From: Halichondria panicea
Taxonomy: Eukaryota; Porifera; Demospongiae; Suberitida; Halichondriidae
Length of the DNA: 64,000 nt
Direction: 5' to 3'
Assembly: GCF_963675165.1 (NCBI RefSeq)
Contig: NC_087378.1
Span: forward strand, 5,451,205 to 5,515,204
A model generated the notes under the pieces. It was not told the origin of the DNA and made no database searches. It worked only from the letters and a program-made list of their open reading frames with translations. Position 1 is the stretch's first letter; each line of letters opens with the position of its first letter. A program made the position numbers and the translations under genes. Positions 1 through 58,913 of the stretch are shown piece by piece.

Positions 1-199
1 TCGTCTGCTCAGTGAAAACAAACAACAAGCAAACCTTCCTAAACCTTCCAGAACCAGCAACAAACTTGTTGACGATAATGACCTGTCCCCAAGCATTCCC
101 GCTGCTTCACCATTTAACATTCCCACAGTAACCCACACGAGCAAAGGAGGAGGAGCTCAGCAACTGCATGATGAGAGAAAGAAGAACATCACTACCGGG
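1..199 (+). CDS. Left-edge exon of the repeat-exon gene (271-nt type)
   Basis: This is the 3' part of an exon homologous to the second exon of the four downstream cassettes. In frame it reads RLLSENKQQANLPKPS near the edge and ends GGGAQQLHDERKKNITTG before gtgagt. Downstream copies have LLTENKQQAIKPKHF and QQLYDERNTR at the same places. So at least one more two-exon cassette lies upstream of the window and the 81-nt array sits between cassettes. The 621-nt intron that follows (200-820) resembles the introns after the downstream cassettes. Confidence 0.8.
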
Positions 200-3100
200 G
201 TGAGTGCTTTTATTATTGTTCTCAGAAGAGCCATCAATCTCCTCGTAAAAGTTGACTTTTGTATGACCGTGGGAGCGCCAAGTTGAGTAGTTTTTTAGTT
301 TCAGCATGGTGTAGTCGTACGAGGAATAAGTAAATCTGACTGTGTGTGTATATACCTACTGATTACTAACTAAATGCTCATCGCTTACATTGCAACAGAA
401 ACTATAGTGCTTCTATCTATAGGCTTCTATAAACCACATTCTTTCGTTCATGGATTTACTTATTTCTCGAGTTATGGGTACAGTAGAGGCTACAGTAAGG
501 TTTGTTGCAGTCTCTTCGTAGCACCATTAACTTTATCTGATCTGCACAAAAAGTTCTATGCAAAGCTGCTCTGCCAAAAACAGCAGCCATTGCAGATCTT
601 ATGTTTTTAATTGACGGGAAAATACACACTACTAAACTCATACATCGATGCTTCTCTCCTTTAATTTATTTTTCCAGTTTATTCCTCTTCCTCAACACTC
701 TAATACGTTGTTGACAGAAGCAAAACATGCCTCGAGGCATTAAGTATTTAGGTGCTTATGATTTTATATGTTTGGCAGCCTAGATTGTTAGCAGCAGTAA
801 TGTCACATCTTCTTTTGTAGACTGGAGAAGGTGTCAGGGGAAGTGGTGCGTTGTCGAGAGAAAATGATTCCACCCGTCCTCAATCAGATGGAGTTCTCAG
901 GGTGAGTTATATACGAAATCACTTATAGGAGTGTAACGTCATTATTCGGTGACAAGCGTACACTGTATTAATTACTCTAAGCCATGGTTGCCAGGAGCGT
1001 AGCCAGACTTTTGAGACAAGCCTTTGTACAGTTTACATGTATTGCAGCTTTAACAAACTGAGTTTCTAGTAGCTAGCTGTAATGCCATAAATTTTCAGAT
1101 TGAAGAAGGTGTCAGGGGAAGTGGTGCGCTGTCGAGAGAAAGAGACTCCGCCCATCCTCAACCAGATGGAGTTCTCAGGGTGAGTTATATTATACGAAAG
1201 GACCTATAGTCTTTGTTTGAAGTCATTATTCGGTGCATGACAATTGTTGCATTGCCATAGAATAGATAAGAGTATCTACTCTTAGTTCAGTGGAAGCCTT
1301 TCAACCTTTGCATGAATGGGCACCTCCACAACTAGTTATAGCAGCAGTAATGTCATATATTATTTTGTAGACTGGAGAAGGTGTCAGGGGAAGTGGTGCC
1401 TTGTCAAGAGAAAGACACTCCCCCCGTCCTCAATCAGAGAGGGTTATCAGGGTAAGTTATTTACAAATTACTTACATGTAGTTTAGTGATTCTGAAGTGT
1501 AACATCATTATTTGGTGACAGCGTACTGTATTACTCTAAGCCATGGGTGCAGTCCAAGCAGTAGCATTTTACATGTATGACAGCTAGTCTCAACATAATT
1601 CTGATTGTTGTCGTAGCAGCAGTAATATCACATTTTCGATTGTAGGCTAGTGAAGGTGTCAGAGGAAGTGGTGCATTATCGAGAGAAAGAGATTCCACGC
1701 ATCCTCTACAAGATGCAGTTTTCAGAGTAAGATACTTATAATGACTGTAGGAGTATGACATCAGTATTTGGTTGACAATAAAGTGTATTATGAAGTCTAA
1801 GCTATGGGTTCAGTCCAAGCCTTTGTATAGTTTACATGTATGACAACTTCAACAAACTGAGTTTGTAGTAGCAGTTGTAATGCCACGAACTTTCAGGTTG
1901 AAGAAGGTGTCAGGGGAACTGGTGCGTTGTCGATAGAAAGAGACTCCGCCTACCCTCAACCAGATGGAGTTCTCAGGGTGAGTTATAAATATTATACGAA
2001 AGTATGGCCTATAGTCTTTGTTTAATTACTGTTAAGAGTATGACATCATTATTCGGTTCATGACAATTGTTGCATTGCTCCTCTAATTGCCATGTGTTCA
2101 GTCAAGAGTAGATAAAGAGTATCTACTCTTAGTTCAGTCCAATTAGGCCTTTCAGTATTATACATTGCATGAATGGCAGCCTCCGCAACAAACAGATTTT
2201 GTTGTAGCAGCAGCAGTGATGTCATATTACTTATAATGAGATTCCTAATTTTTTAATTGCGTTTTATTATTAGCGCGTACTTAATTTAGCGTTAATTACA
2301 AATTCGCTAAAATTAGTAACAATAAGGTATTTTGTAGACTGGAGAAGGTGTCAGAGGAAGTGGTGCATTCTCGAGAGACAGAAATTCCACCCGTCCTCAA
2401 TCAGAGGGAGTTATCAGGGTGAGTTATATACAAAATTACAGTAGATTCTCGCTATTCCGGCTCTCCAAAGTACAGCCACCTCGATATATCGGCCATTTGG
2501 CTTGGCACGGAATGCTAGCTATATCTGTACTGCACAAAACTCACCCTGAAGTACGGCCACTCGCTATTCCGTATACCAGCCAGTGCTGGCTGTCCCAAAC
2601 AAGGTTTTCAATGTAATTTTATACGTGTATTACGGCCGGATATGACGTTTTGGGTGTGGTTTAGCAAATAAAATTGGTTAAATACATCGAGAACAGAATG
2701 ATTCATTATCCTTCATTATCCTCGAGACAAGAACCGCAAAATTAGTCATTAGATTCGAGGTAAGGTCATTTTAAGCCGCGGCTATTTCCCGAAATACAGC
2801 CACCTCGCTATTCTGGCCAAGCTGCATGGTCCCAAGGGTGACCGCATTAACGAGAGTCTACTGTACTTAGTCTAGTGATTCGGAATATAGGAGTGTAACA
2901 TCATTTTTCGGTGACAAGCCTAAACTGTATTACTCTAAGCCATGGGTGCAGTCCAAGCTTTAGTTCAAACTGGTAACGTTTTACATGTATAACAGTCTCT
3001 GATTGTTGTCGTAGCAGCAGTAATATCACATTTTCTTTTGTAGGCTGGTGAGGGTGTCAGAGGAAGTGGTGCATTATCGAGAGAAAGAGATTCCACGCAT

Positions 3101-6100
3101 CCTCTACCAGATGCAATTTTCAGAGTAAGATACTTATAGCTTTTATTTTAATGACTGTAGGAATATGACATCATTATTGGTTGACAAAGTGTATTTTTAA
3201 CGTGTATTATTAACTTTGGGTTCAGTCCAATTAAGCCTTTGTACAGTTTACATGTATTGCAGCTTCAACAAACTGAGTTTCTAGTAGCAGCTGTAATGCC
3301 ACACATTTTCAGATTGAAGAAGGTGTCAGGGGAAGTGGTGCGTTGTGGAGAGAAAGAGACTCCGCCCATCCTCAACCAGATGGAGTTCTCAGGGTGAGTT
3401 ATATTATACGAAAGTACCTATAGTCTTTGTTTGACGTTATTATTCGGTTCATGACAATTGTTGCATTGCCATGGAATAGTTAAGAGTATCTACTCTTAGT
3501 TCAGTGGAAGCCTTTCAACCTTTGCATGAATGGAAATTACCTCCGCAACTAGTTATAGCAGCAGTAATGTCATACATTATTTTGTAGACTGAAGAAGGTG
3601 TCAGGGGAAGTGGTGCGTTGTCAAGAGAAAGACACTCCCCCCGTCCTCAATCAGAGAGAGTTATCAGGGCGAGTTATTTACGAAATTACTTACGTGTAGT
3701 TAACGTCATTATTCGGTGACAAGCATACTGAGTCATGGGTGCAGTCCAAGCAGTAGCATTTTACGTATATAACAGTCTCAACATAATTCTGATTGTTGTC
3801 GCAGCAGCAGTAATATCACATTTTCGATTGTAGGCTAGTGAAGGTGTCAGAGGAAGTGGTGCATTATCGAGAGAAAGAGATTCCACGCATCCTCTACAAG
3901 ATGCAGTTTTCAGAGTAAGATACTTATAGTAATGACGGTAGGAGTATGACATCAGTATTTGGTTGACAATAGAGTAAGTCTAAGCTATGGGTTCAGTCTA
4001 AGCCTTTGTACAGTTTACATGTATGACAACTTCAACAAACTGAGTTTATAGTAGCAGCTGTAATGCCACGAATTCTCAGGTTGAAGAAGGTGTCAGGCGA
4101 AGTGGTGCGTTGTCGATAGAAAGAGACTCCGCCCATCATCAACCAGATGGAGTTCTCAGGGTGAGTTATAATTATTATATGAAAGTACGGCCTATAGTCT
4201 TTGCTAATTACTGTCAAGAGTATGACATCATTATTCGGTTCATGACAATTGTTGCATTGCTCTCTAATTGCCATGTGTTCAGTCAAGAATAGATATCTTA
4301 GTTCAGTCCAATTAGACCTTTCAATTTTTCTTCAGTATTATACATTGCATGAATGGCAGCCTCCGAAACATGCAAACAGATTTTGTAGTAGCAGCAGTAA
4401 TGTCATATTTTATTTTGTAGACTGGAGAAGGTGCCAGAGGAAGTGGTGCGTTCTCGAGAGAAAGAGGTTCCACCCGTCCTCAATCAGAGGGAGTTATCAG
4501 GGTGAGTTATATACGAAATAATTATTACTTAGTCTAGTGCTTCTGAGTGTAGGAGTGTAACATCATTTTTCGGTGACAAGCCTAAACTGTGTTACTCTAA
4601 GCCATGGGTGCAGTCCAAGCTTTAGTTCAAACTGGTAGCGTTTTACATGTATAACAGTCTCTGATTGTTGTCGTAGCAGCAGTAATATCACATTTTCTTT
4701 TGTAGGCTGGTGAGGGTGTCAGAGGAAGTGGTGCATTATCGAGAGAAAGAGATTCCACGCATCCTCTACCAGATGCAATTTTCAGAGTAAGATACTTATA
4801 GCTTTTATTTTAATGACTGTAGGAATATGACATCATTATCGGTTGACAAAGTGTATTTTTAACGTGTATTATTAACTTTGGGTTCAGTCCAATTAAGCCT
4901 TTGTACAGTTTACATGTATTGCAGCTTCAACAAACTGAGTTTCTAGTAGCAGCTGTAATGCCACACATTTTCAGATTGAAGAAGGTGTCAGGGGAAGTGG
5001 TGCGTTGTGGAGAGAAAGAGACTTCGCCCATCCTCAACCAGATGGAGTTCTCAGGGTGAGTTATATTATACGAAAGTACCTATAGTCTTTGTTTGACGTT
5101 ATTATTCGGTTCATGACAATTGTTGCATTGCCATGGAATAGTTAAGAGTATCTACTCTTAGTTCAGTGGAAGCCTTTCAACCTTTGCACGAATGGAAATT
5201 ACCTCCGCAACTAGTTATAGCAGCAGTAATGTCATACATTATTTTGTAGACTGGAGAAGGTGTCAGGGGAAGTGGTGCGTTGTCAAGAGAAAGAGACTCC
5301 GCCCGTCCTCAATCAGAGGGAGTTATTAGGGTGAGTTATTTACAAAATTACTTACATGTAGTTTAGGAGTGTAACGTCGTTATTTGGTGACAGCGTACAC
5401 TATTACTCTAAGCCATGAGTGCAGTCCAAGCAGTAGCATTTTACATATATAACAGTCTCAACATAATTCTGATTGTTGTCGTAGCAGCAGTAATATCACA
5501 TTTTCGATTGTAGGCTGGTGAAGGTGTCAGAGGAAGTGGTGCATTATCGAGAGAAAGAGATTCCACGCATCCTCTACAAGATGCAGTTTTCAGAGTAAGA
5601 TACTTATAGTAATAACTGTAAGAGTATGACATCAGTATTTGGTTGACAATAGAGTAAGTCTAAGCTATGGGTTCAGTCCAAGCTTTTGTACAGTTTACAT
5701 GTATGACAACTTCAACAAACTGAGTTTGTAGTAGCAGCTTTAATGCCACGAACTTTCAGGTTGAAGAAGGTGTCAGGGGAAGTGGTGCGTCGTCGATAGA
5801 AAGAGACTCTGCCTATCCTCAACCAGATGGAGTTCTCAGGGTGAGTTATAATTATTATACGAAAGTACGGCCTATAGTCTTTGTTTTGATTTAATTACTG
5901 TCAAGAGTATGACATCATTATTCGGTTCATAACAATTGTTGCATTGCTCTCTAATTGCCATGTGTTCAGTCAAGAGTAGATAAAGAGTATCTACTCTTAG
6001 TTCAGTCCAATTAGGCCTTTCAAGCTTTCTACAGTATTATACGAATGGTAGCTTCCGAAACATGCAAACAGGATTTGTAATACCAGCAGTGATGTCATAT

Positions 6101-9100
6101 TTTATTTTGTAGACTGGAGAAGGTGTCAGAGGAAGTGGTGCGTTCTCAAGACAAAGAGGTTCCACCCGTCCTCAATCAGAGGGAGTTATCAGGGTGAGTT
6201 ATATACGAAATAATTATTACTTAGTCTAGTGCTTCTGAGTGTAGGAGTGTAACATCATTTTTGAGTGACAAGCGTAAACTGTTTTACTCTAAGCCATGGG
6301 TGCAGTCCAAGCCTTAGTTCCATTTTACATGTATAACAGTCTCTGATTGTTGTCGTAGCAGCAGTAATATCACATTTTCTTTTGTAGGCTGGTGAGGTTG
6401 TCCGAGGAAGTGGTGCAGTATTGAGAGAAAGAGATTCCACACATCCTCTACCAGATGCAATTTTCAGAGTAAGATACTTATAGCTTTTATTTTAATGAAT
6501 GTAGGAATATGACATCATTATTGGTTTGACAAAGTGTATTTTTAACGTGTATTATTAACTTTAAGCAGTTCAAGCCTTTGTACATGTATGGCAGCTTCAA
6601 CAAACTGAGTTTGTAGTAGCAGTTGTAATGCCACGAATTCTCAGGTTGAAGAAGGTGTCAGGCAAAGTGGTGCATTGTCGATAGAAAGAGACTCCGCCCA
6701 TCCTCAACCGGATGGAGTTCTCAGGGTGAGTTATATTATTATACAAAAGTATCTATAGTCTTTGTTTTGATATAACAGTATGACATCATTATTCGGTTCA
6801 TCAATTGTTGCATTGCTCTAATTGCCATGTCTTCAGTCAAGAGTAGATAAAGAGTATCTACTCTTAGTTCAGTCCAATTAGGCCTTTCAAGCTTTTGTAC
6901 AGTATTATACATTGCATGAATGGCAGCCTCCGGCCGGCCGCAACATGCAAACAGATTTTATAGTAGCAGTAGTTATGTCATATCTTATTGTAGACTACAG
7001 AAGGTGCCAGAGGAAGTGATACGTTGTCGAGACAAAGAGGTTCCACCCGTCCTCAGTCAGAGGGAGTTATCAGGGTGAGTTATACGAAATTAATTAGTCT
7101 TGTGATTCTGAATGTAGGAGTGTAACCTAATTTTCGGTGACAAGCGTAAACTGTATTACTCTTAGCCATAGGAGCCTTAGTTCAAAATAGTAACATGTTA
7201 CATGTATAACAGTCTCAACATAATTCTGATTGTTGTCACAGCAGCAGTAATATCACACTTTCTGTTTTGTAGGCTGGTGAAGGTGTCAGAGGAAGTGGTG
7301 CGTTATCGAGAGAAAGAGATTCCACGCATCCTCTATCCGATGCAATTTTCAGAGTAAGACATTTATTTTAATGACTCTAGGAGTGTGACATCATTTGGTT
7401 GACAATAAAGTTATTATTAGCTATGGGTTCAGTCCAAGCCTTGTATAGTTTACATGTATGGCAGTTCAACAAACTGAGTTTATAGTAGCAGCCGTAATGC
7501 CACAAATATTTAGGCTGAAGAAGGTGTCAGGGAAAGTGGTGTGTTGGTGAGAGAAAGAGACTCCACCCATCCCCAACCAGATGGAGTTCTCAGAGTGAGT
7601 TATAACGAAAGTTCCTAGTCTTAATTAAGGTAGTGTGACATCAGTTACTCGGTTAGTGTTGATTATAATTTAGCCATGTGCTCAGTCAAGAGTATAAGAG
7701 TATCTTAGTTCAGTCCAAACCTTTCAACTGTTGTGCAGAATGAATAATTAATACATTGCATGAATGGCAGCCTCCGCAACATTATAGTAGCAGCAGTAAT
7801 GTTACGTATTATTTTTATTTTGCAGACTGGAGAAGGTGTCAGCGGAAGTGGTGCATTGTCGAGAGAAAGAGGTTCCACCCGTCCTCAATCAGAGGGAGTT
7901 ATCAGGGTGAGTTATACAAAATTACTTAGTCTAGTGATTCTGAATGTAGGAGTGTAATGTCATTATTCGGTGATAAGCGTACACTGTATTACTCTAAGCC
8001 GTGGGTGCAGTCCAAGCCTTTGTTGCATTTTACATGTATAACATGTATCTCAACATAATTCTGATTGTTGTCGAGCAGCAGTAATATCACATTTTCTATT
8101 GTAGGCTGGTGAAGGTGTCAGAGGAAGTGGCGCGTTATCAAGAGAAAGAGATTCCATGCATCCTCTACAAGATGCAGTTTTCAGAGTAAGATATTTATTT
8201 TAATGACTGTAGGAGTATAACATCATTATCGGTTGACAAAGTGTATTATTAACGTGTATTATTAACTTTGGGTTCAGTCCAATTAAGCCTTTGTACATGT
8301 ATGGCAGCTTCAACAAACTGAGTTTTTGTAGTAGCAGTTGTAATGCCACACCTTTTCAGGCTGAAGAAAGTGTCAGGGGAAGTGGTACGTTGTTGATAGA
8401 AAGAGTCTCCACCCATCTTCAACCAGGTGGAGTTCTCAGGGTAAGTTATATTATACGAAAGTAACAAGTATAGTTGTTTTGATTTAATGACTGTAGGAGT
8501 ACCGTAGAAACTGGATTATTAGCACTTTCGACTATAAGCATATCTTTAAGCGCATGCTCAACTGCGGATTTTTTGTACTTGAATTGAAGCTCTTTTTCAA
8601 TTATGCGAAGGATATTAGTGAAAATTGATTTCAGCTTTACTACGATCGAGCTACATGTAGCTATAGTTTGTATAGTGCATGGCAGCTATATAGCGGCTTG
8701 TCATTCTGGAAGGGACTCTCTGGGCACTCTGTTACCTTGTCTGATCATGCTGAGACGTAGATGAGGTGGACTTGGATCCTTTCTGTTCCAGATCTTGGTT
8801 AATGTATGTTGTAAAATGAAAACTGTAAGATACTATGGTATGATAATTATAGATCCAGTTTGGATTGCCTGTTTGCCTTGCTTGCTCACTTTCTAGGTTG
8901 CTTTTCATCACAGAGACATCCGGTTACTGGTTGGGGCTCAAAAATGACTGAATTATAGGCGCATTCTCGAGTATAAGCGTATAGCTATTGACCCCATGAG
9001 CGCATGCGCTACTAATCCAGTTTCTACGATATGACATCATTATTCGGTTCATGATAATTGTTGCATTGTTCTAATTGCCATGTATTCAGTCAAGAGTAGA

Positions 9101-12100
9101 TAAGAGTATCTACTCTTAGTTCAGTCCAATTAGGCCTTCCAAACTGTTGTACAGAATGACATCTTGAATGGCAGCCTTCGTAACAAACAGATTTTGTAGT
9201 AGTAGCAGCAGTAATGTCATATTTTATTTTGTAGACTGAAGAAGGTGTCAGAGGAAGTGGTGCGTTGTCGAAAGAAAGAGGTTCCACCCGTCCTCAGTCA
9301 GAGGGAGTTATCAGGGTGAGTTATACGAAATTACTTAGTCTAGTGATTCTGAATGTAGAAGTGTGATGTCATTATTCGGTAACAAACTTATAAACTGTGT
9401 TACTCTAAGCCATGGGTTCAATCAGTTCAAGCCTTTGTTAGCGTTTTAATTGTATGACAGCTAGCCTCAACATACCATATAGCGCAACATTTTCGAGGCA
9501 CTTATATTTCGTAGAATGGCGTCTAAAAGCATTTCGTTGCACATACAATGTTCGTGGGATGACTGCTTACCGGAAGCCACGCCTTAAATCTTTGCACGTT
9601 AATTATAGCAGATAATTGTAATTAAAGAACACTGTAGAAGTATAACATCATTATCGGTTGACAAAGTGTATTATTAACGTGTATTATTAACTTTGGGTTC
9701 AGTTCAACTAAGCCTTTGTACAGTTTACATGTATTGCAGCTTCGAGTTTCTAGTAGCAGTTGTAATGCCACGAATTCTCAGGTTGAAGAAGGTGTCAGGG
9801 GAAGTGGTGCATTGGTGAGAGAAGGAGACTCCGCCCATCTTCAACCAGATGGAGTTCTCAGGGTGAGTTATAATTATTATACGAAAGTACCTACGTAAAA
9901 TCTTTGATGACTGTAAGAGTATGGCATCATTATTCGGTTCATGACAATTGTTGCATTGCTTTAATTGCCATGTATTCAGTCAAGAGTAGATAAAGAGTAG
10001 ATAAAGAGAAGTTAGTTGAATGGCAGCCTCCGCAACAAACAGATTTTGTAGTAGCAACAGCGATGTCATATTTTATTTTGTAGACTGGAGAAGGTGTCAG
10101 AGGAAGTGGTGCGTTGTCGAGAGAAAGAGGTTCCACCCGTCCTCAATCAGAGGGAGTAATCAGGGTGAGTTATATACAAATTACTTAGTCTAGTGATTCT
10201 GAATGTAGGAGTGTAACGTCGATCATTATTCGGTGACAAGCGTAAACTGTATTACTCTAAGCCATGGGTGCAGTCCAAGCATTTGTTCAGAATGGTAGCG
10301 TTTTACATGTATGACAGCTATAGCCTCAACATACCGTATGTGCAAAATTTTCAAGGGACTTATATTTCGTGGAATTGTGTCTAAAAGAATTTCGTTGCAC
10401 ATGCAATGTTCGTGGGATGACTGCTGACCGGAAGCCACGCCTTAAATTTTTGCACATTATAGCAGATAATTAAAGAACAATTTCGTGGACTTAATTTTCG
10501 TGTAGGATTGCCACGAAAACAGCGAAAATTTATCGCTATACTGTTGTCGTAGCAATATCACATTTTCTTTTGTAGACTGGTGAAGGTGTCAGAGGAAGTG
10601 GTGCGTTATCGAGAGAAAGAGATTCCACGCATCCTCTACCAGACGCAGTTTTCAGAGTAAGACACTTATAGTTTTAACTATAGGAGTGTGACGTCATTTT
10701 TATGTTGATGACAAGTGTAAAACGCAATACTGAGATCTAGCTTGATGAGTTGTGTGGCGCGGCCTAAAACGTTGACAATGTTTACCGTTTACCGCATCGT
10801 GGACTGTGGCATATTGCATGGAGCAAAGAGCAGTTGGAATGCCGTCGTTGACACTGTGCCCGTAAGGTGCTGATAGATCACAAATCAATCTCCATTTGTT
10901 CACCTAGTGTGCTTTTGGGACGAGGCCCAGAGGGCTGGTGTGTGGTTTGTCGCTTGTTATTGGGCCTAGCATGCGATTGGCTGCTAACTCTGTACAAAGT
11001 TTTTCCTGTACAACATGTGGGTTTGCTAGTGCAGAGGGACGATTATGGGTGTAGGAGCGAAGGTGATCTCGGGGGCCGTGAAAGCCAATACGGAAGCCCT
11101 CTTGAATGCTTTTATACATATACGATGCATAGCATTGGTCAGGGTGTGCCTGCAGAAATGGCTCTAGCTGAACAAGATTGATAGGAGATGTGTAACGAGG
11201 GCACTTTGTGTAATTCCCCATTAGCGACGAGCCTGTCATAAGCGTCTGTAAGTCGTAAGTGTACTTGTACTTTCCGGACTTGATGTTTGCGCACGGCAAG
11301 TCCCGCCTATAGATAGCACCTGCAGCAGAAAAGATAAATATGGCTTAGGAGTTCATGCGCATCAGTGGCGGATCCAGGAATGTTGAGAGGGAGGTTCCAA
11401 AACAGTTCATTAAAAGCCATCACTTTTCTTAAGCAATGAGCATGCGCATTAGAGAGCAGCCTAGTAACTACGAACCTGTCTAGATCCGCCACTGCGCATT
11501 GCGTGACGAAAATTATATGAGCCTGCACGCGCCAACACAAATGACAATGACAGCAGGGAAAGTGCATTTACTTGCAAAACAACGCAAAATAACAGCATAA
11601 TTATTTGGACAATAATATACAGTAAATACACACTAGCTGCTCGCATCATGGAATCCGTTTACGAAGACTTAGGGAATGGTCTCTTCTGCTTGAAGAACAA
11701 GTTGCCTGGTGTTTTGGGGCATTCGCAAGCAGGATGAGGTGCTGCACCAGGGTATGTAGCACAAACATGGTTGTACGTGCATGTGCCGGGATAGATGCAT
11801 GAACCTCAATTCCACGAGTTACACACCCTTGTCTTGGTATGCGTAAACGTTAGTGGAGGTGGATGAGATTTCGGGTGAAGGTACGCCAAGGCACATTCAT
11901 TCCTGATGCACATTCATTCCTGGTGTGATTGACACCGCGACAAAGGGAGAGGAGCGACTAGGTTTACCCGTGAAATTTCCGAGGATGGTTGTGGCATGAA
12001 GTGCTGGGGAGAGTGTGTTCCAGGGCAATGAAGGGTTGGCGGCAGCTTGTTGCCGGAACGAGCGATCGTAGCCGAGGTGTCCGTGACGAGAGGCCTCTAG

Positions 12101-15100
12101 GATCATCACCCGGGGCATAGGCAAGCTTTATCTTTTGTGGTCTAATCTGTGGTGAGAATTGCTGTGTAAGTCAGGAAGCAGTACAACCATGATGGCAATG
12201 TGAGGACATCCCTCATGCAGGGGCGTGATGGGCCTGCCGCTGATTATGTTGCCTGGAGCGTGGATGCTGTGGAGTAGTCTCATGGATCAGCCCCCTCCTA
12301 AGAAGGGGTCTGAGCACTCCTGATGTAGTTTTGTTGCACACGCTGGAATTCCAGCGGCTCAATCAGATTGACTTATTCCAGTCAGGTGATATTATAGGAG
12401 GCAATAAAGAACTGCACGTTGCTCAACGCATTTGGATAATCATTAACGCATGCATTACGCATGGTAAACGCTTCATACATAGACGCTGCTACGAAGCATA
12501 AGCAAGCCAAGCAGGGGTCCTTGGGCACAGAGTTAGCACCACAGGCAAAAGACACACATGTAATAGATTGAAGCACCTTCTTCAGAGAGAGAGAGAGAGA
12601 TGCCTGCGCTTTACGCTTTATACAATTAACAAATACGCGGGGGCGTAAGGTCAGGAATTCCATTGGTCTGGCACATTCCACTGTGAACTGACCTCAAGAC
12701 AAGAGTGCTCAGACCCCTTCTTAGGAGGGGGCTGATCCATGAGACTAGCTGTGGAGTTGCTCTAGTACGGAGATGTTGTCGGCCAGCAATTCTCGCAAAT
12801 TGACCGGATCAAATTTTGTCGACAATTTTTGTGGGATGGGCGCCTCTGCCGGTGAAAGGATAAGTCCGCTTCTATAGGATATGACTGTGGCAATTGGTGG
12901 GGCGCTGAGTTGGTTTTGGGTCAACGGGACCAAAAATAACAGCGATGGTGGTGGTAATGGCCCCAAGTGCTGCTAGGAGGGTTGGAGTAGATATTTGTGA
13001 GGCGAAGTGCTCGTAACAATTGATGAGTGAATGAGGAGAAGAAACAAAAAACAAAACAAAAAAACAATAAAAGCGTGAGATATAGCCGTGCGGAGTGAAT
13101 AGTGTGAGATAGGGCTGTAGCAATTTGTCCTACTCAATGGCAGCAAGTAAATATAGTATAACCTGCTTACTAGTACTGGATAGGACTGCAATTGTCCTAG
13201 CCAAATCGAATGCTTATTATGCTCATGCAATAATATGGAATAGGACCAAAGCCATGTGAATGAGCGGTGTGGTGTTTTTCCTGCTGTGCAATAGTAAGAC
13301 TATAGTAGCCAAAGCCACAAGTGAGTAGTGCATAGTGCTTCTTTATGGTGTGTAATCAATGACAAAATTAGCCAGTGTAAATTTAGATGGGCCATACCAA
13401 AACTGGACCCAAAAATGCTGACAGTGCAGAAAGTGACCCACAGAAAATGGTGCCCTCAGAATTTCTGCTCACACAAGAAAACTATACCCTCAGCAAATCA
13501 TACCCATGCCACACATATACTCACAAAAGGAAGTTATCAGATAATCCTATCAGAAAATCATACCCACGCACACACTGACAGGGACCATACTCAGAAAATT
13601 CAATGCTTAATATTGATGTTGGTACAGTAAATATCATTATGTGGTGTGGGTATGAGGGTCAGTTTCCTGCTGGTTAAAGTTCTCTTGTATGGGTGAGGGT
13701 ATATAGTTCCCCTTTGTGCGTGCATGGGTATGATTTTCTGAGCGTATAGTTTCCTTGTGTATTTTTGAGGGCATTGATTTCTGAGGGTCACTTTCTGAAG
13801 GTCATTTTCTGTGAGACACTCACTTTCCGAGGGTCACTTTCTGCACTGTTAGCATTTTTGGGTCCAATTTTGGAACAGCCTATCTAAATTTACACTGGCT
13901 AATTTTGTCATTGATTACACACCATACTTCTCAAGCTCGTTAGTCTGAGTCAGTTCCACAAGAGTAAACAGTGCTTATCAAGGTACTGAATAGGACTGTA
14001 GTGTTAAGCCCACGTGTCATAGTGCTTATCATGCAAGCACTCACTGTTAAGGATGCTTGCGGTTAGGTAGTGCAGTGCGATTTGGTATTGAGATACTATC
14101 GCAGTGCTATAGTCATGCTGGTGGGCAGCAAGTTTGACGCGGCATGGGACATGGCTAAACTGCTGCTCCAGACGCTGGCAATTAGCTATAATTATGGCAG
14201 CAATGGGAAGTAATCAACAGGTGTATTCCACGACACTATGCGAGGAGCATAAATCAACAATCACATGATATATGTACAAAGCGCTAGCAATGTATTTACA
14301 ACACAAACCTTGGAGAGTGGTGGGGATGAACGTCCCTATCCCTTGTGGGTTGATATTGTGGAGGCTGCACAGTCTGTGCAATGGGCATCACTTGTTGTTG
14401 CAGGGTCGATTGCCGCTGTTGTCCTGAGGTGAGCGGTGTCTGCTGCTGAGAGGGGTGCTGCTGTAGCTGTGGTAGAGAGTTGGCCGGCTCCTGTGGGTCC
14501 TGGGATTGGGTTGAAACGGGCAGGGAGCTTGCTGCCACGCGTTGGGCCTCTAGTTCAGCCCGCACTTCGTTGCGAATGATATGCAAAAACGCCGTGAAGT
14601 CGGGTTGGGCAGGTGGTGGGGCTGGTGGTGCTGGAGGCTGTCCAGCGGTGATTGAGACTACCTGTCCAGGAGGAGTTGCCGTCGAATTGTTTTGTGTGGC
14701 AGCTCGAGTAGAGCGTCGGCCGGTCGCTGTGGATCTGGTAGTTCTAGTCCTCTTTCCACGTGGCATCGTGGAGTGGTATAGTTAGACCAAAGTTAGACAA
14801 AGACTTTGCAGCTGACAAATGAATATGTCTTTGCTTGTGATAGAGCTAGCAGTAGCTATAGTGCACAATAATTGTATTTATGCACATTATGTGCAATACA
14901 TGATCCCTTATACCTGGCCTTGCATTTGACCACAATTATGCTGCTAAACAGGAAGTGGCCCCATCTTATGTTAACTGCATTTAAATGCATGCCTTTAAAT
15001 CAGAGGAGGTACGACAGGCGCGGTGCAGCTCAAGCGATTAGCCTTTGATTATCCGCCCATGCCCCGTCCACGTCGTATGTTTTTGCCTGATGTAATCAGA

Positions 15101-18100
15101 GACTAATTACTTGAGCTGCACCGCGCCTGTCGGACCTCCTCCGCCTTTAAATGCTCTTAAGCCATGCATGTGTTTAGTCCGAAGCAGATTTTGTAGTAGC
15201 AGCAGTAATGTCACGTTATATTTTGTAGACTGGAGAAGGTGTCAGTGGAAGTGGTGCGTTGTCAAGAGAAAGAGGTTCCACCCGTCCTCAATCAGAGGGA
15301 GTTATCAGGGTGAGTTATATAACATTTTAAGCCATGGGTTCAGTCCAAGCCTTTGTATAGTTTACATGTATGGCAGCTTCATGCAGCAAACTAATTGTGT
15401 AGTAGCAGCTGTAACGCCACGTACGAATTTTTAGGCTGGAGAACGTTTTAGTGGAAGTGGTGCGTTGTCGAGAGAAAGAGACGCCGCTCATACTCAACCA
15501 GATGAAGTTCACAGAGTGAGTTTATACGAAATAAGTACTTGTATATAATGACTGCAGTATATAGAAGTGTGACACCATTATTTGGTTGAGGACAACCGTA
15601 ACGTGTATATATTATTACTCTAATTAAGGATGGGATCAGTCCAAACCTTTACACAGAATAGTAGTATTTTACACGTTATAACAGCTTACAATGCATGGTT
15701 GTAGGCAACGAATTGCCTGAAAGTTGCCTGGTGTATGATGGCCTTTACGTTTCTTATTTTGTTTGTTATTCATGTTATTCATTTTCGTCTGTATTCAGGT
15801 TGGACTCTCGATGTCAAGAAACACCGTCAGTCAGTCTCAAACTAAAATCACATCTTCCCAATTGGATGCCCCACAATCCAACACTGAACATGGAGATGAA
15901 ACGGGTTCTGGGGATGACATTGATTCTGATAATTTCAATGATAGTGATACAGATGACACTAAAGTTGCATCTTCGGAGGTTGCCAAACGTTTGCCAGGGG
16001 ATCTAGAACAAATAAAAAAAACCCGAATGGATCGGCATACTAAACGACATAGTCGCCGACTCTTGGGCAAGGAAGACGAGACAACCTATACCCCAGCACC
16101 ATACCAGTCACGCTATCGCCAGTCCCCACACAAAAAAGATCGGAGCAGACGAGATGGCCGCAGTAAACGAAAAGGAGAACAGCTCCTCGACAGTAAGGTG
16201 ACTGATTCACCTCTGCTGCAGGCTGACCCCAACCGCAGAAAGAAGAGAGAAAAACTACTGCCTAGGATTGACAGGTGAGAACTAGATTGTAATAATTATG
16301 CTTTAAAATGAATGTGTGATTTCATGTAGGCTCTATTTAGGATGGATTAGATAACTGTAGTTATAAGGTCAATGCATAAAAGAGTAGTTTTTACCGGTCG
16401 TAAACTGGTCCCTTGTTATGTATTTTATCGAGTATAGTGCCTACCGTATATCGTATATTGTCCCTTGTTATGGAGTTGTTTTGTGTTTGTTGTTGTAGAG
16501 GAGACAAATTGAAAGCCCACGGACTTGATCCAAAGGAAATAAGTGAAGGTCCTGGAGGTGACACATCTCCAAAGAGCATAGATCGTCTGCTCACTGAAAA
16601 TAAACAACAAGCAATAAAACCTAAGCATTTCGGAACTAGCAACAAACTTGTTGACAATAATGACCTCCTCCCAAGCACTCCGGCTGCTTCCCCATTGAAC
16701 GTTTCCATAGTTACCCATGCGAGCAAAGGGGGAGGGGTTCAGCAACTGTATGATGAGAGAAACACCAGGGTGAGTGCTTTTTTATAATTATTCAGTCGAG
16801 CCTCGTAAGTTGCTTTTTGTATGCAGTTATCATGTCAAGTTTCAGCATTGTTATGTGCCTCGAGGTATAGTCGCACATGAAGACAGTAAAGCTGACTGTG
16901 TTTGTGTACCATATAGTGGGAGGGTATAAACTTTCGCGGAATGACCATTAGAAAGGTTTTCGCGGATTTAATGTTTGCGGATTAGCAGCCTTTCTTGCAG
17001 CATGCATGCATGCGATATTAAATTCATGGTTCGCGGTAGATGCTTGATCGGCAAAAACCATTTATACCCTCGAATTATACCCGCTATAAATTGCAACGGC
17101 AAGCCAACTAACAGCGTTCATATAGGCTTCTAGCCACATTCTGATTTAACCTATTATAAACGGGTACTAATTTTAGCAAATTAGGGAATTTGTAATTAAC
17201 ACTAAATTTCATAAAAAAAAACTTTTTTTACAGATAATGTACTTTTGAAAACCCCAAACTTTCCATTCAACCTCATCTTTGACAAAATGTGCTACAAATC
17301 CACTAAAATTTGTACCCTAAAACCAGAGAAAAATCTGAAAAACGCTAAAATTACTACATGTTTATAATAGTAACCTTAAGGTACTTACCTCGATAGTTTA
17401 GTGAAGGTTTGTTGCAGTCTCTTCAGAATCGTTCGTAGCATCGTTTGTCCGCACAACATCTCTATTCGAAATTTGATTAAATCTCCCTCTTTTTCTATTT
17501 TGATTCTTCATTGGCAGGAAATACACATTACTAAACTTATCATCATCGATCTATGCTTCTCTCCTTGAATTTCTGCTTCCAGTAAGCTCTTCTTTATAAC
17601 ATTCTAAAATATGCCTCAAATCATTTAAGCACTCAGATGCTTGTGTGATTGATTCTACATGGCAGCCTTAGCAAACGTAATATTATAGTAGCAGTAATAA
17701 TCGCATCTTCTTTTGTATTCAGTTGATAACAGGTGCTCTAAGCCATGGGTTCAGTCCAGCCTTTGCATAGAGTGATAGCATTTAACATATATATGGCATA
17801 CTCAAATTGGATGTTTCATACATCTAGCTCGTCCTTTTAGCCTTTTATTTTGTTTGAAACATGTGATTCATTTTTGTCTGTTCAGGTTGAACTCTCGATG
17901 CCAAGAAATACCCTCAGTCAGTCTCAAGCCAAAATCACATCTACCCATTCGGATGCCCCACAATCCAACACTGAACATGGAGATGAAACGGGTTCTGGGG
18001 ATGACACTGATTCTGATAATTTCAATGATAGTGATACAGATGACACTAAAGTTGCATCTTCGGAGGTTGCCAAACGTTTGCCAGGGGATCTAGAACAAAT

Positions 18101-21100: not shown

Positions 21101-24091
21101 AGTGGGAGGGTATAAACTTTCGCGGAATGACCATTAGAAAGGTTTTCGCGGATTTAATGTTTGCGGATTAGCAGCCTTTCTTGCAGCATGCATGCATGCG
21201 ATATTAAATTCATGGTTCGCGGTAGATGCTTGATCGGCGAAATACCCTCGAATTATACCCACTATAAATTGCAACGGCAAGCCAACTAACAGCGTTCATA
21301 TAGGCTTCTAGCCACATTCTGATTTAACCTATTATAAACGGGTATACTAATTTTAGTGAATTAGGAAATTTGTAATTAACGCTAAATTATAATGAATCTC
21401 ATAAAAAAAACTTTTTTTTCAGATAATGTACTTTTGAAAATCCCAAACTTTCCATTCAACCTCATCTTTGACAAAATATGCTACAAATTCACCAAAATTT
21501 GTACCCTAAAACCAGAGAAAAATCTAAAATTACTACATGTTTATAATAGTAACCTTAAGGTACTTACCTCGATAGTTTAGTGAAGGCTTGTTGCAGTCTC
21601 TTCAGAATCGTTCGTAGCATCGTTTGTCCGCACAACGTCTCTGTTCGAAATTTGACCATCAGTCTTTGTAGTCCCCCTTTTTCTATTTTGATTCTTCATT
21701 GGCAGGAAATACACATTACTAAACTTATAATTTTATCATCATCGATCTATGCTTCTCTCCTTGAATTTCTGCTTCCAGTAAGCTCTTCTTCATAACATTC
21801 TAAAATATGCCTCAAATCATTTAAGCACTCAGATGCTTGTGTGATTGATTCTACATGGCAGCCTTAGCAAACGTAATATTATAGTAGCAGTAATAATCGC
21901 ATCTTCTTTTGTATTCAGTTGATAACAGGTGCTCTAAGCCATGGGTTCAGTCCAGCCTTTGTATAGAGTGATAGCATTTAACATATATGGCATACTCAAA
22001 TTGGATGTTTCATACATCTAGCTTGTCCTTTTAGCCTTTTATTTTGTTTGAAATATGTGATTCATTTTTGTCTGTTCAGGTTGGACTCTCGATGCCAAGA
22101 AATACCCTCAGTCAGTCTCAAGCCAAAATCACATCTACCCATTTGGATGCCCCACAAACCAACACTGAACATGCGAATGAAACGGGTTCTGAGGATAACA
22201 CTGGTTCTGATAATGATACAGATTACACAAAAGTTTCATCTTCGGAGGTTGCTAAACATTTGCCAAAACAAATCAATGAAGCCCCAATGGATCAGCATAA
22301 CGAACGGCGTGCTCGCCGACTCTTGGGCAAGGAAGACAAGACAACCTATACCCCAGCACCATACCAGTCACTCTATCGTCAGTCGCCACACAAAATGGGG
22401 CGGAGCAGACGAGATGGCCGCAGTAGACGGAAAGAAGAACAGCTCCCCGATACTAAGGCGACTGATTCACCCCTGCTGCAGGTGACCTATGATGACCCCA
22501 AAAGCAGAAAGAAGAGAGAGAAACTACTGCCTATGATTCACAGGTGAGAACAGGGTTGTCATTCTTTTCACGTACGTTTGATTTGATACCTTACGTGGGT
22601 ATATTTTCACAGGTATACAATTGTCGGCAATTTCACTGTTTAGCTCATTTTGCTAGTATTAAATTCTGCTAAAGTTGTGAAATTAATAGTGTTTCTAATT
22701 ACTCGCAAGTGTTTTAATGAGATTCATTGCATTTTCCGATTATCTGTGAGTACAATTTTTTGCAATTTTGAAATAACATAATTGCTAGGTCCATTCGTAT
22801 CGAGTATAGTTCCTACCGTATATCATATATTGTCCCTTATTATGGATTGACAGAAGCTGTTTTGTGTTTGTTGTTGCAGAGAAGACAAGTTGAAAGCCCA
22901 TGGACTTGATCCAAAGGAAATAAGTGAAGCTGCTGGAGATGACACATCTCCAAAAATCATAGATCGTCTGCTCAGTGAAAACAAACAACAAGCAATGAAA
23001 CCTAAACCTTCCAATGATTCCGAAATATATAGTAACACACTTGTTGACGATGATGACCTCCTCCCAAGCACTCCCGCTATTTCTATAGTAACCCACGCTA
23101 GTCAAGGGGGAGGGGTTCAGCAACTGTATGATGAGAGAAACACCAACATCACTACCAGGGTGAGTGCTGTTACATGTGTATTCAATGGAGATTCGTCAAG
23201 CCTCGTCTAAATCATGAACCTTTGATTTCTGTCTAAGTTTAATGTGTATGACCTTGCATGGGGCCCCTATTACAATCATGTATATATACGTATAATATAG
23301 TTTCAGCATTGTAATGCCTCAAGGCTTAACCAGAAAGCATACTGTGTGTGTTATTCAGTTGTTACTGCTCAACGATTAAATAAGGAAAGTACAGATTCTC
23401 TTTGTTGTGGTCAGCCACTGCATGTGTTTGAAGAGATTGAGAAGCTGCTGTGTGCATGCCATTTAATGGCAAGAAAGATTAGCAGTCTACTGCTCCGGCC
23501 CTCCCCCAAGCCATAGTAGTCTGGCCACCCTATTTAATTTGAACTTTACACTGGGCATGGAAATTAAGCTGTGTGTTTTCTTCAGAATCGTTTATAGCAT
23601 CATCTGTTTTCACAAAAATCTATTAAGGTAACAGCCTTGCATTAAAGCGATAGTTAGCTACAAGAGTAAGAAAACAGCAGCAGCCATTGTGAACTCTGAC
23701 CTCCGCAGATCTATACCCCTCTTTTAGTTGATAAAATTTACTAAAGTTCTGTTATTGAAATTCTGTCGCCATTAAGCTAGGATCCTAGCTCTTCCGTAAT
23801 TAACACTTTTGTTTTGCTTCAAAGCATTATTGAGCACTCGGGCGTGCTTGTGTGAGATTACATGTACATGTATGGCACAGCCTCTTATTGCTGTAGTAGC
23901 AGCAGTAATGTGATGTTTTTTTGTAGGCAGAAGAAATCGTCAGAGGAAGTGGTGCGTTCAGTGTCAGAGAAAGTGGTACGTTGTCGGGAGAAAGAGACTA
24001 CACCCGTCCTCAATCAGATGGAGTTCTCTCAATGAGTACAAGGCAACTCCCTTGCACGAAATGTTCGCTCAAATTAACTCACTTCCACTAA
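1..24091 (+). CDS. Unrecognised giant gene built from amplified exons (5' end outside window)
   Basis: I do not recognise this protein. The visible exons are 1-199, then 32 exons of 81 nt from 821 to 15515, then four exon pairs (15799-16274/16499-16769, 17886-18361/18586-18856, 19977-20452/20685-20955, 22080-22543/22880-23159), then the terminal exon 23927-24091 with stop TAA. Every junction shows AG at the acceptor and GT at the donor except one GC donor at 3669. Phases are 0-0 for the 81-nt exons and 0-2/2-0 for the pairs, so one frame runs through about 1,979 codons without a stop. The protein is hydrophilic: 27-residue repeats, then segments with an acidic stretch (GDETGSGDDTDSDNFNDSDT) and basic clusters (RSRRDGRSKRKG, NRRKKREKLL). 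No signal peptide or membrane segment is visible. A long, disordered, possibly nuclear protein is inference. Exons stay in frame while introns vary, which favours real coding. Confidence 0.78.
2439..2863. mobile_element. Miniature inverted-repeat element, TA target duplication
   Basis: The 425-bp insert sits between an A exon and a B exon of the array. Its ends are cagtagattctcg and cgagagtctactg, and TA dinucleotides flank it (2437-2438, 2864-2865). Sister introns read caaaattacttagtc across the empty site. A relative with the same ends is at 59670-59986, and a right-end fragment lies near 26812-26952 inside a POLM intron. TA duplication suggests a Tc1/mariner-type transposase; no coding region is present. 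Confidence 0.85.
3044..6387 (+). repeat. Recent tandem duplication of a six-exon block (~1.66-1.68 kb)
   Basis: Exons starting at 3044, 3313, 3588, 3834, 4080 and 4421 correspond in order to 4706, 4975, 5250, 5514, 5760 and 6113. Offsets are 1662, 1662, 1662, 1680, 1680 and 1692 nt. Intron sequence is nearly identical over much of the block. The block holds two A-B-C sets, so copying has occurred at the six-exon level on top of the three-exon periodicity. A more diverged relative spans about 1099-2338 at offsets of roughly 2.1-2.2 kb, part of which comes from the transposon at 2439-2863. Confidence 0.85.
8502..9029. mobile_element. 528-bp miniature inverted-repeat element, TA target duplication
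   Basis: Left end ccgtagaaactggatta and right end taatccagtttctacga are inverted repeats of about 22 bp with two mismatches. TA flanks at 8500-8501 and 9030-9031. The equivalent intron elsewhere reads ctgtaggagtatgacatc, showing the empty site. It lies in the intron between exons 8360-8440 and 9235-9315. No ORF of note. Confidence 0.85.
9475..9629. mobile_element. Fragment of the ccgtatag-type miniature element
   Basis: The text beginning at ccatatagcgcaacatttt matches the left part of the elements at 10333 and 45281 (shared aggcacttatatttcgt, aatgttcgtgggatgactgc). The right end is missing. It sits where a type B exon is expected between the A exon at 9235 and the C exon at 9782; that B exon is absent. 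Confidence 0.6.
10333..10542. mobile_element. ccgtatag-type miniature inverted-repeat element
   Basis: It begins ccgtatgtgcaaaatttt and ends aaaatttatcgctata, imperfect inverted ends in TA context. It is inserted in the intron before the B exon at 10576. Related copies are 36363-36568, 45281-45505 and the fragment at 9475. Confidence 0.65.
10706..11299 (-). pseudogene. Reverse transcriptase fragment
   Basis: Reading the minus strand from 11299, the ORF ends TSDKPHTSPLGLVPKAH at an in-frame TAG near 10905. The same frame continues directly with NKWRLICDLSAPYG and VNDGI, the N-terminal fingers region of a reverse transcriptase. Further on, a short tandem duplication (gtaaac repeated) shifts the frame before the LIKLDL motif A region, and the fragment ends near 10706 before the catalytic YxDD region. 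This is a dead, truncated copy. Confidence 0.7.
11362..11494. mobile_element. Small inverted-repeat element (agtggcggatcca ends)
   Basis: Left end cagtggcggatccagg and right end tagatccgccactg are inverted repeats about 133 bp apart. The agtggcggatcc terminus resembles those of hAT-like miniature elements. It is nested in the decayed retroelement. Confidence 0.55.
12275..12747. repeat. Fold-back element with ~45-bp inverted ends
   Basis: Positions 12275-12319 (agtctcatggatcagcccc to gagcactc) recur as a near-perfect reverse complement at 12703-12747. The interior of about 380 bp contains a (GA)n run near 12583-12600. It interrupts the retroelement between its gag-like and RT parts. Confidence 0.8.
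12747..12966 (-). pseudogene. Possible gag-like remnant
   Basis: A 73-codon minus-strand ORF contains SPAEAPIPQKLSTKF and LRELLADNISVLEQL. The pattern of a short Pro-rich segment followed by ELL-x-DNI resembles the downstream part of ORF1 in the retroelement family suggested for this insert. Position and strand agree with that ORF1, but the ORF is short and the family assignment is from memory. Confidence 0.35.
13344..13926. repeat. Long inverted repeat (fold-back) of ~580 bp
   Basis: The left arm starting tatggtgtgtaatcaatgac and the right arm ending gtcattgattacacaccata are reverse complements over at least 100 bp. Weaker complementarity continues toward a centre near 13625. Each arm contains direct repeats built on cagaaaatcatacccatgc-like units, so the whole could fold into a long hairpin. 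It is nested in the retroelement insert. Confidence 0.8.
14296..14766 (-). CDS. Gag-like ORF1 of the inserted retroelement
   Basis: The 156-codon ORF starts MPRGKRTRTTRSTATGRR, a basic N terminus. It continues with a Pro/Ala stretch (PPAPPAPPPAQPDF), a short helix-like segment (TAFLHIIRNEVRAELEAQR), and a long Gln-rich tail. Low complexity with a basic start is typical of ORF1 proteins of retroelements. It is co-oriented with the RT fragment 3 kb downstream. No zinc knuckle is visible. The function is inferred only from position and composition. Confidence 0.5.
   Translation of the reverse strand: MPRGKRTRTTRSTATGRRSTRAATQNNSTATPPGQVVSITAGQPPAPPAPPPAQPDFTAFLHIIRNEVRAELEAQRVAASSLPVSTQSQDPQEPANSLPQLQQHPSQQQTPLTSGQQRQSTLQQQVMPIAQTVQPPQYQPTRDRDVHPHHSPRFVL
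15003..15143. repeat. Inverted repeat at the edge of the retroelement insert
   Basis: The segment 15003-15036 (aggaggtacgacaggcgcgg, gtgcagctcaag) is repeated in reverse complement at 15110-15143. The spacer of about 75 bp contains CpG-rich sequence. It lies just before the host intron resumes near 15170. Confidence 0.75.
16913..17097. mobile_element. Small element carried in every cassette intron (copies 1-3)
   Basis: The segment starts near tagtgggagggtataaact and ends near ttatacccgcta, giving short imperfect inverted ends in TA context. The interior has repeated cgcggatttaatgtttgcgg-like text. Equivalent copies begin near 19000 and 21090. Its presence at the same place in three cassettes shows it inserted before the cassette amplification. 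Confidence 0.55.
23927..24091 (+). CDS. Terminal exon of the repeat-exon gene
   Basis: After a ttgtag acceptor the exon starts AEEIVRGSGAFSVRESGTLS, a diverged 81-nt-type unit with a partial internal duplication of its core. It then runs through GERDYTRPQSDGVLSMSTRQ into a short unique tail rich in Cys, Lys and His, and stops at TAA 24089-24091. The reading frame continues from the preceding phase-0 exon. The usual donor after the repeat unit has changed (ctcaatgagt in place of ctcagggtgagt), which would explain how an internal exon became terminal. No convincing AATAAA was seen just downstream. Confidence 0.75.
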   Translation, partial: AEEIVRGSGAFSVRESGTLSGERDYTRPQSDGVLSMSTRQLPCTKCSLKLTHFH

Positions 24092-49100: not shown

Positions 49101-49502
49101 TGCTTCAAAATCATCAACAACAAATCCTGTATTCCTCCCTCTGTCTTCTCACCCCACCCATCCCCTTCCCCCCGTCATCCGCACAGCCAAATACTCTTTA
49201 TACCACATGTGGGCACCTCATCCCACAAACATTCCTTTTTTCTGGATGTAATACCAAAATGGAATTCTTTACCACCAGAAGTTATCAACAGCTCCTCTGA
49301 TTCATCATTTAAATCGAACCTCAGTAGCTTTTTGTGTAATAATTATTATAATTAGCCGTAGCTCCTGTTTTATTTCTCTGTTTTTGTGTTGTCCAGGGGA
49401 AGTCTTCACACTAGCCATCTGAGCTACCTGATCTACCCTTATGCACACCTTGGTTTTGCATAAAAATTTCTTAAATAAAAAAAAAAAAAAAAAAAAAAAA
49501 AA
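46200..49502 (+). mobile_element. CR1/L2-like LINE with poly(A) tail
   Basis: The protein-coding part runs 46258-49355 and is followed by a 3' UTR ending in aaata and about 28 A residues (49474-49502). The 5' boundary is not defined; a tataaaag box lies near 46187. Domains on the plus strand are a 2A-like motif, a PHD-type finger, an endonuclease and a reverse transcriptase. I found no target-site duplication by eye. Confidence 0.85.
46258..49355 (+). pseudogene. LINE polyprotein: 2A motif, PHD finger, endonuclease, reverse transcriptase (frameshifted)
   Basis: The protein starts at ATG 46258. Residues 9-20 are LLAGDIELNPGP, matching the DxExNPGP consensus of 2A ribosome-skipping peptides. 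A PHD-like finger follows (CGECSGPVKC, CDVCNTWLHTHC, CRSCLC). The apurinic endonuclease motifs are LNCRSL, CETWLD, LLGDFNID and DHNTIF. Near 47240-47265 homology leaves this frame and continues one frame back, so a one-base change has broken the ORF; the first frame then ends at 47448. The reverse transcriptase has NYRPISLLS, FFDIRKAFDSVPH, SGVPQGSILGPLLF and YADDILLY, and stops at 49353-49355. The element family is Jockey/CR1/L2-like by domain order; the exact clade needs a tree. Confidence 0.85.

Positions 49503-50491: not shown

Positions 50492-58913
<8,422 letters not shown>

Follow-up and report, generated by a model that had tools for sequence, protein, structure and literature searches.

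A giant gene model with an array of 115 in-frame repeat exons in the sponge Halichondria panicea

Results and Discussion

The DNA studied here (the window) is a stretch of 64,000 nucleotides from Halichondria panicea, C2:5451205-5515204, where C2 stands for contig NC_087378.1 in a genome of 131 Mb and 39 contigs. A run of short exons of constant length in the window, pointed out in an initial annotation, forms, in the present reconstruction, the 3' end of a single + strand gene model that spans ~149 kb and contains 115 such exons (units). Frame and length of the units are kept and their amino acids are loosely constrained. The sequence data are probably best explained by one giant gene with constitutively joined exons that would encode a long disordered cytoplasmic tether or spacer, grown by tandem duplication, in which length matters more than exact sequence. 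Window position p corresponds to C2:5451204+p; 190 kb upstream of the window were also analysed and positions there are zero or negative.

Unit exons and gene model

Scanning of the window with a unit template gave 32 exons, each exactly 81 nt (27 codons) long, that form an uninterrupted run at 821..15515 on the + strand; none was found on the - strand. The exons start at 821, 1099, 1371, 1646, 1897, 2338, 3044, 3313, 3588, 3834, 4080, 4421, 4706, 4975, 5250, 5514, 5760, 6113, 6388, 6645, 6994, 7273, 7514, 7826, 8105, 8360, 9235, 9782, 10084, 10576, 15229 and 15435. All 32 were open, of phase 0-0 and preceded by AG; 31 donors were GT and one was GC (3669..3670, unit 3588-3668), the sole non-GT donor in the array of the window. 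The description given in the initial annotation (32 exons of 81 nt, phase 0-0, intact splice sites, no stops) was confirmed, with this GC donor to be added. Sorting by two residues gave three exon types in the order TVTAVTAVTAVTAVTAVTAVTAVTAVTVTATV, a nearly perfect T-A-V succession. Position-matrix scores of the 105 exons of 81 nt (window and upstream) were 87 to 166, partly circular as the matrix was trained on these exons; control maxima were -95 (one shuffled sequence) and -108 (reverse complement). A 33rd template match, at 23951, does not represent an exon of its own but part of the terminal coding exon (23927-24091).

The gene model spans ~149.4 kb, window coordinates -125334 to 24091 (C2:5325870-5475295), and the array starts at -43697, ~44 kb upstream of the window. 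Of the 105 units with 81 nt, 73 are upstream of the window and 32 inside it. Ten shorter ones of 63 nt (7), 69 nt (1) and 72 nt (2) were all found outside the window; 115/115 lengths are multiples of three and every join is of phase 0-0. Splice sites of the units: 115 AG acceptors, 113 GT and two GC donors; stops: 0. Introns between neighbouring units (n = 102) were 86-4,572 nt long, median 190.5, with remainders of 34/33/35 on division by three; the pattern of exon lengths stands out against this even distribution. One gene, symmetrical exons and an exon length held against a free intron length, as initially proposed, are supported. The estimate of "at least 32" exons holds for what proved to be only the 3' end of a 115-unit array, and the strict constancy of 81 nt applies to the window and is relaxed outside it, where the ten exceptions are still multiples of three.

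Joining of 169 exons (21 exons upstream of the array, units, two-exon cassettes described below and a terminal exon) gave one open reading frame (ORF) of 8,069 residues with 169/169 AG acceptors and 168 donors (166 GT, 2 GC). Its sole stop, 24089-24091, closes the terminal coding exon (23927..24091, + strand), which includes a fused, diverged unit. The 21 exons before the array, -51517 to -43909, share one frame, and the first unit exon is separated from the preceding exon by an intron of 211 nt. They appear to encode the end of the N-terminal region, one hydrophobic stretch read as a membrane helix and a charged coiled-coil-like region. Further upstream, a signal-peptide-like start was located at -125334, with repeated N-terminal blocks between it and the 21 exons; the automatic model of this N-terminal part comprises 128 predicted exons and 10,336 codons, and the whole product would reach ~18,000 residues as a rough sum including this model. 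The 5' boundary of the giant gene would be set by open stretches just upstream, window coordinates ~-131000 to -128100 on C2, that resemble phosphoacetylglucosamine mutase.

The tail, i.e., units and cassettes, has 6,954 residues, is richest in S, G, R, D and P and contains five cysteines; K + R (1,029) and D + E (999) are nearly balanced, and 204 of 230 windows in the charge-hydropathy plot are on the disordered side of the line. Units make up 115/169 exons but contribute only ~9.2 kb to the 24.2 kb of joined coding sequence, and a smaller share when the N-terminal model is included.

Coding tests

Reconstruction of substitutions on a single tree of the 105 exons gave 327 changes, none of them nonsense; 9.7 nonsense changes were expected at the observed transition bias (Poisson p ~6e-5). 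For indels, 70 nearest-copy pairs were picked by flank similarity (>0.60; flanks of 110 nt, splice sites excluded). Over 13,264 sites, the intron flanks of these pairs carried 250 indels, of which 204 had a length not divisible by three. At this rate ~105 indels were expected in the exons; gaps were needed in five pairs, with a net change of 0 or 9 nt and no net frameshift. The units show neither nonsense nor frameshift changes, which indicates translation in the proposed frame. The other two sense frames had stops in 14 and 56 of 105 exons; an antisense reading was rejected, since its three frames had stops in 33, 95 and 104 of the 105 exons.

Nearest-copy ratios of nonsynonymous to synonymous differences (pN/pS) for all exons were 0.64 (0.47-0.94) at ≤4 differences, 0.80 at ≤8 and 0.87 at ≤12; at the same thresholds the window alone gave 0.40, 0.62 and 0.75, and the upstream exons alone 0.89, 0.96 and 0.93. 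Wrong-frame and antisense controls gave 0.53-1.06 at ≤4 and 0.48-0.94 at ≤8 and ≤12. Since some controls were as low as the true frame, the ratio does not discriminate; dN/dS was therefore dropped as a proof of coding, and the nonsense and indel counts were relied on instead. The most kept unit positions among the 105 exons were S8 (102), G7 (101), E3 (98), G9 (98) and Q21 (96). Changes were fewer than expected at codons 3, 8 and 21 (p 0.012, 0.0075 and 0.016) and more numerous at codon 6 (p 0.0009), p-values being uncorrected for 27 tests.

Two-exon cassettes and their relation to TOPBP1

Sixteen copies of a two-exon cassette lie between the runs of units: L1 of 416-476 nt and L2 of 271-292 nt, phases 0-2-0, together ~240 residues; 16/16 are open. 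The window (all on the + strand) opens within an L2 exon of the joined ORF, the 3' part of which is at 1..199 (donor ACCGGG/GTGAGT at 199/200); this exon starts 84 bases upstream of the window and its L1 partner is wholly upstream. After the last unit of the run follow L1 15799..16274 (476 nt, phase 0 in, 2 out) and L2 16499..16769 (271 nt, phase 2 in, 0 out), L1 17886..18361 and L2 18586..18856, L1 19977..20452 and L2 20685..20955, and L1 22080..22543 and L2 22880..23159.

A genome search with L1 + L2 gave 36 matches: the C2 copies, one locus on contig C9 (C9:2342684-2343624; E-values 1.4e-47 for L1 and 8.4e-33 for L2) and, at other sites on C2, two that were short and weak. The C9 copy is placed between BRCT-type exons of compatible phase (joined by eye), and Pfam gave BRCT-type domains on either side. 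The exons downstream of it matched BRCT7/8 of human TOPBP1 with E = 3e-40, the next best protein being at 3e-22; by these matches, L1 + L2 on C9 is the linker before BRCT7 of the predicted TOPBP1 of the same genome. Identity of the 16 cassettes to this linker was 68-73% with the intron at the same place, and the two are of common descent. The internal intron itself was alignable between C9 and 14/16 copies (38-48 nt, 79-87%), so that the transfer was one of genomic DNA, intron included. The place of the linker within TOPBP1 suggests the direction from TOPBP1 to the giant gene; the cassette tree has no outside root. The 60 kb surrounding the C9 locus contained no unit exon. In a genome-wide unit search 40 of 90 candidates were scored, and all of these were on C2 inside or adjoining the giant gene. 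No BRCT domain was found by Pfam in the scanned parts of the giant gene, which include pieces of the N-terminal model.

Values of dN/dS for cassettes against the TOPBP1 copy were 0.38-0.51, and the mean for upstream against window cassettes was 0.59; pooled within the upstream group, pN/pS was 0.87. In vertebrate TOPBP1 the linker before BRCT7 is the site of the ATR-activating domain, and human TOPBP1 has WDDP where the C9 copy has TYDDP. This putative counterpart of the aromatic-D-D-P core was found in the C9 copy and in one of 16 cassettes, that with L1 at 22080..22543, which alone in the giant gene keeps TYDDP; the other 15 are without it. The human segment was ranked 1 of 294 reported matches to the linker (300 shuffles added), a weak match of 9.4 bits, the best shuffle scoring 7.1. 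The ATR-activating domain of TOPBP1 and the function of W1145 are described in PMC6121618. In searches of the PDB with the linker no TOPBP1 chain was matched. A segment of the linker matched a designed repeat protein with a sum E of 0.0012 but without any individually significant stretch; this match was regarded as chance.

Growth by duplication

Neighbouring upstream blocks of 6.6-7.0 kb share stretches that are 90-95% identical, and blocks of 2.1 kb are 91-98% identical; two blocks of the window, 1.66 and 1.68 kb long, are 94% identical in register. Block identities were taken from the first four stretches per pair. On this evidence the tail was enlarged by tandem duplication of blocks of ~1.7, 2.1 and 6.6-7.0 kb; unequal exchange is the likely engine of this growth. 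Apparent relics of lost units, with unit-style flanks and no unit match, were seen by eye between the last cassettes (~17700-17740, 19795-19835 and 21895-21935).

Interpretation and alternatives

The product would consist of a signal-peptide-like start, a very large repetitive and presumably extracellular N-terminal region, a single membrane-like hydrophobic stretch, a region resembling a coiled coil and finally a tail, composed of 115 units (mostly of 27 residues) and 16 cassettes of ~240 residues. With all exons joined constitutively, as the sequence suggests, the tail may be a cytoplasmic tether or spacer, long, disordered and with charges close to balance, between the membrane and a partner bound at the C-terminus or by the cassettes, and its length would be more important than its exact sequence. 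A tether is the most economical reading because frame and unit length are kept while the sequence drifts.

Several points weigh against it. Tree-based omega across the units was ~1.15, i.e., their amino acids drift at a near-neutral rate, and divergence of exon and intron was 0.049 and 0.063 in the 70 pairs and 0.031 and 0.028 in the 28 closest. Broken copies could also be purged by gene conversion or unequal exchange among copies. The 21 exons that precede the array were joined by manual choice, and the first set contained stops until a missed exon of 56 nt was included. The N-terminal model is rough: an in-frame stop is present at one predicted junction, and some of its exons, which are not repeated from block to block, are probably false. 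Assignment of the membrane helix, the coiled coil and the topology was by eye. The omega value looks contrary to the selection on the protein proposed in the initial annotation, where a dN/dS near 1 across copies had been named as evidence against it; yet the lack of nonsense and frameshift changes indicates translation in frame. The proposal is supported for frame and length (nonsense 0, 9.7 expected) and is not supported for the amino acid sequence as the main target.

The strongest rival, although unlikely on balance, is a non-adaptive expansion, in keeping with the nearly neutral drift of the units: tandem duplication would have inflated a tail that was already disordered, the units themselves would do nothing, and the frame would be kept up only since a stop or frameshift costs the protein its C-terminus or subjects the entire mRNA to decay. 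The omega value, the similar divergence of exons and introns among recent copies, the block duplications of 90-98% identity and the pooled pN/pS of the upstream cassettes (0.87) all suit it. It does not account for the low dN/dS of the cassettes against TOPBP1, though part of that constraint may sit on the TOPBP1 branch, nor for the reduced change at unit codons 3, 8 and 21, as far as p-values uncorrected for 27 tests are taken at face value. A separate gene or an unexpressed relic, in frame with the membrane protein by accident, gains from the manual choice of the pre-array joins; it is very improbable, given that the 21 upstream exons and the array share one stop-free frame with an intron of 211 nt before the first unit, and that a relic should carry stops, which 0/115 units do.

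The initial annotation regarded the exons as interchangeable and the locus as a possible source of many length variants. Such an alternative-splicing device, with tails of many lengths or combinations produced by inclusion or skipping of symmetrical exons, is permitted by phase, units being 0-0 and the cassette pair 0-0 overall so that any subset keeps the frame, and the ordered alternation of three exon types would suit it. Exons that are often skipped should, however, gather stops and frameshifts, and not one of 115 units or 16 cassettes is broken (nonsense 0, 9.7 expected), which argues against frequent skipping and makes this explanation a rather unlikely one. Also doubtful, and somewhat more so, is an array of docking sites, in which every unit would serve as a motif for low-affinity binding or for modification, multivalency being conferred by the repetition as in a scaffold or condensate. 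The strongly kept S8, G7, E3, G9 and Q21 and the low nonsynonymous counts at codons 3, 8 and 21 agree with it; the codon p-values fail correction for 27 positions, though, the same test shows no deficit of change at G7 and G9, omega is ~1.15, and no Pfam domain was found above the curated cut-off in the joined units scanned. Least probable of all is a cell-surface giant with a length-tuned tail whose 16 domesticated TOPBP1 linkers would couple membrane events to checkpoint-kinase signalling or tether such factors at the membrane: the shuffling of the linker is supported by sequence, the signalling role would be conjectural, and 15/16 cassettes lack the aromatic-DDP core.

The locus gives a clear natural example of a protein segment enlarged by more than 100-fold copying of one symmetrical exon, with a relative of the accompanying module still identifiable elsewhere in the genome. 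Two constraints that are usually confounded are separated in it, frame and exon length being kept while amino acids drift, and selection on the length of a disordered tail thereby becomes directly testable by comparison of copy number between individuals and species. Genes of such build may easily be missed or broken by automatic annotation.

Comparison with known systems

In construction, the nearest systems appear to be fibrillar collagen and titin, exon-repeat giants of the same kind, not of the same family: many tandem in-frame exons of the same size in one ORF with compatible phases, known here from the genome sequence. In titin, one exon codes for one PEVK motif. These motifs have ~28 residues (PMC9100103), and 93% of the alternatively spliced exons of the I-band are symmetric (PMC12580133). 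Both are giant proteins with a long disordered segment; titin is sarcomeric with Ig/FnIII domains and PEVK, whereas the giant gene has a signal-peptide-like start, a membrane-like stretch and its own S-, G-, R-, D- and P-rich tail, and no Pfam domain, Ig/FnIII included, was found above cut-off in its scanned parts (of the N-terminal model, pieces). Titin exons are alternatively spliced; in the giant gene constitutive joining is predicted from sequence. Helix exons of fibrillar collagen are of 54 and 45 bp and are thought to have grown in number by repeated in-frame addition of exons of fixed size (PMC4450265); 23 contiguous 54-bp exons are described there, compared with 32 contiguous 81-nt exons in the window. 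Collagen length is tied to the Gly-X-Y helix, whereas the tail of the giant gene is apparently disordered, its exon sequence drifts at a near-neutral rate and no Gly-X-Y repeat was found in the unit sequences.

Micro-exon genes (MEGs) of schistosomes have exons of 3-81 bp regularly interspersed with long introns (PMC10526429). Short exons are the common feature; MEG products are secreted and composed of many different short exons, whereas in the giant gene one exon type is copied more than 100 times and a membrane-like stretch is present. The coding sequence of a MEG comes mostly from short exons, which is not so here, as the share of the units given above demonstrates. TOPBP1 has in common with the giant gene the homologous linker with its intron at the same place, and differs by its BRCT domains, none of which was found in the scanned parts of the giant gene, and by TYDDP, missing from 15 of the 16 cassettes. 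A mutually exclusive cluster of the Dscam type gives one exon per transcript; full inclusion of the units leaves the frame open, so that the frame does not enforce such exclusion. Fungal tandem-repeat surface proteins (PMC8786786), close by title, were rejected: their genes have one or two introns, not repeated exons. In the literature on repeated in-frame exons and on giant or disordered repeat proteins, titles and opening lines of abstracts contained no comparable array of 27-codon exons, most subscription journals being outside the scope of the search.

Database searches

The statement of the initial annotation that no described gene family has this protein sequence holds for the joined units, for which Pfam and protein searches gave no convincing match among the candidates scored, and does not extend to the N-terminal part, which has database relatives, or to the cassettes. 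The first 905 residues of the N-terminal model gave seven matches (identities 86, 62, 62, 62, 59, 50 and 27% over 49-59% of the query; 7,988 candidates scored), which indicates conservation of this part in other sources. No protein-database match was obtained for a piece of 1,115 residues around the coiled coil (8,000 candidates scored) or for 11 joined units (7,993 candidates scored, those sharing most words). A coiled-coil piece of 315 residues had no convincing second place in its own genome (best other E 0.42), one of 239 residues no relative in a scan of genome contigs, and the first N-terminal exon and the cassette none in scans of viral contigs. Two N-terminal pieces matched no Pfam family at E up to 10, and one N-terminal piece gave only weak, unrelated matches in the PDB (best E 0.15). 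Six joined units of the window gave Trimer_CC below threshold in Pfam (E 0.00085, 19.3 bits; cut-off 27) and three weaker matches, taken as chance. Rfam gave nothing in the window at gathering scores.

EVC2/limbin, which has a similar layout (N-terminal extracellular part, one membrane helix, coiled coil), was proposed from the layout by eye and dropped as unsupported by sequence: EVC2_like (PF12297) was absent from the Pfam matches and was not found in the genome, control genomes being silent too, and human EVC2 was ranked 29 of 289 reported matches with 28 of its own shuffles scoring higher. Attachment of glycosaminoglycans at Ser-Gly pairs was set aside, since the proposed topology would place the tail in the cytoplasm.

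Other elements of the window

The enlarged intron between units 30 and 31 (10657..15228, + strand, 4,572 nt; the remaining 30 introns of the window run have 125-794 nt) contains inserted, apparently transposon-like DNA. On its - strand are an open stretch at 10906-11344, which resembles a reverse transcriptase of DIRS/Ngaro-type retrotransposons in its N-terminal part, and a proline/glutamine-rich open stretch of 161 residues at 14298-14781, possibly transposon-derived. An inverted repeat around GACAGGCGCGGTGCAGCTCAAG was seen by eye at ~15003-15144, like a short inverted-repeat transposable element.

Downstream of the giant gene, open stretches at 32759-33318 (+) resemble SGF11/ATXN7L3 of the SAGA complex by motif, and open stretches of a putative AAA ATPase at 50784-53968 (-) resemble fidgetin-like 1. 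Overlapping open stretches of 411 and 722 residues at 46213-49355 (+), endonuclease- and reverse-transcriptase-like, are taken as a putative non-LTR (long terminal repeat) retrotransposon split by a frame change. An open stretch of 302 residues at 49479-50387 (+), resembling an NmrA-like NAD(P)-binding protein, is possibly a retrocopy, as it follows directly after a poly-A run and the retrotransposon-like stretch.

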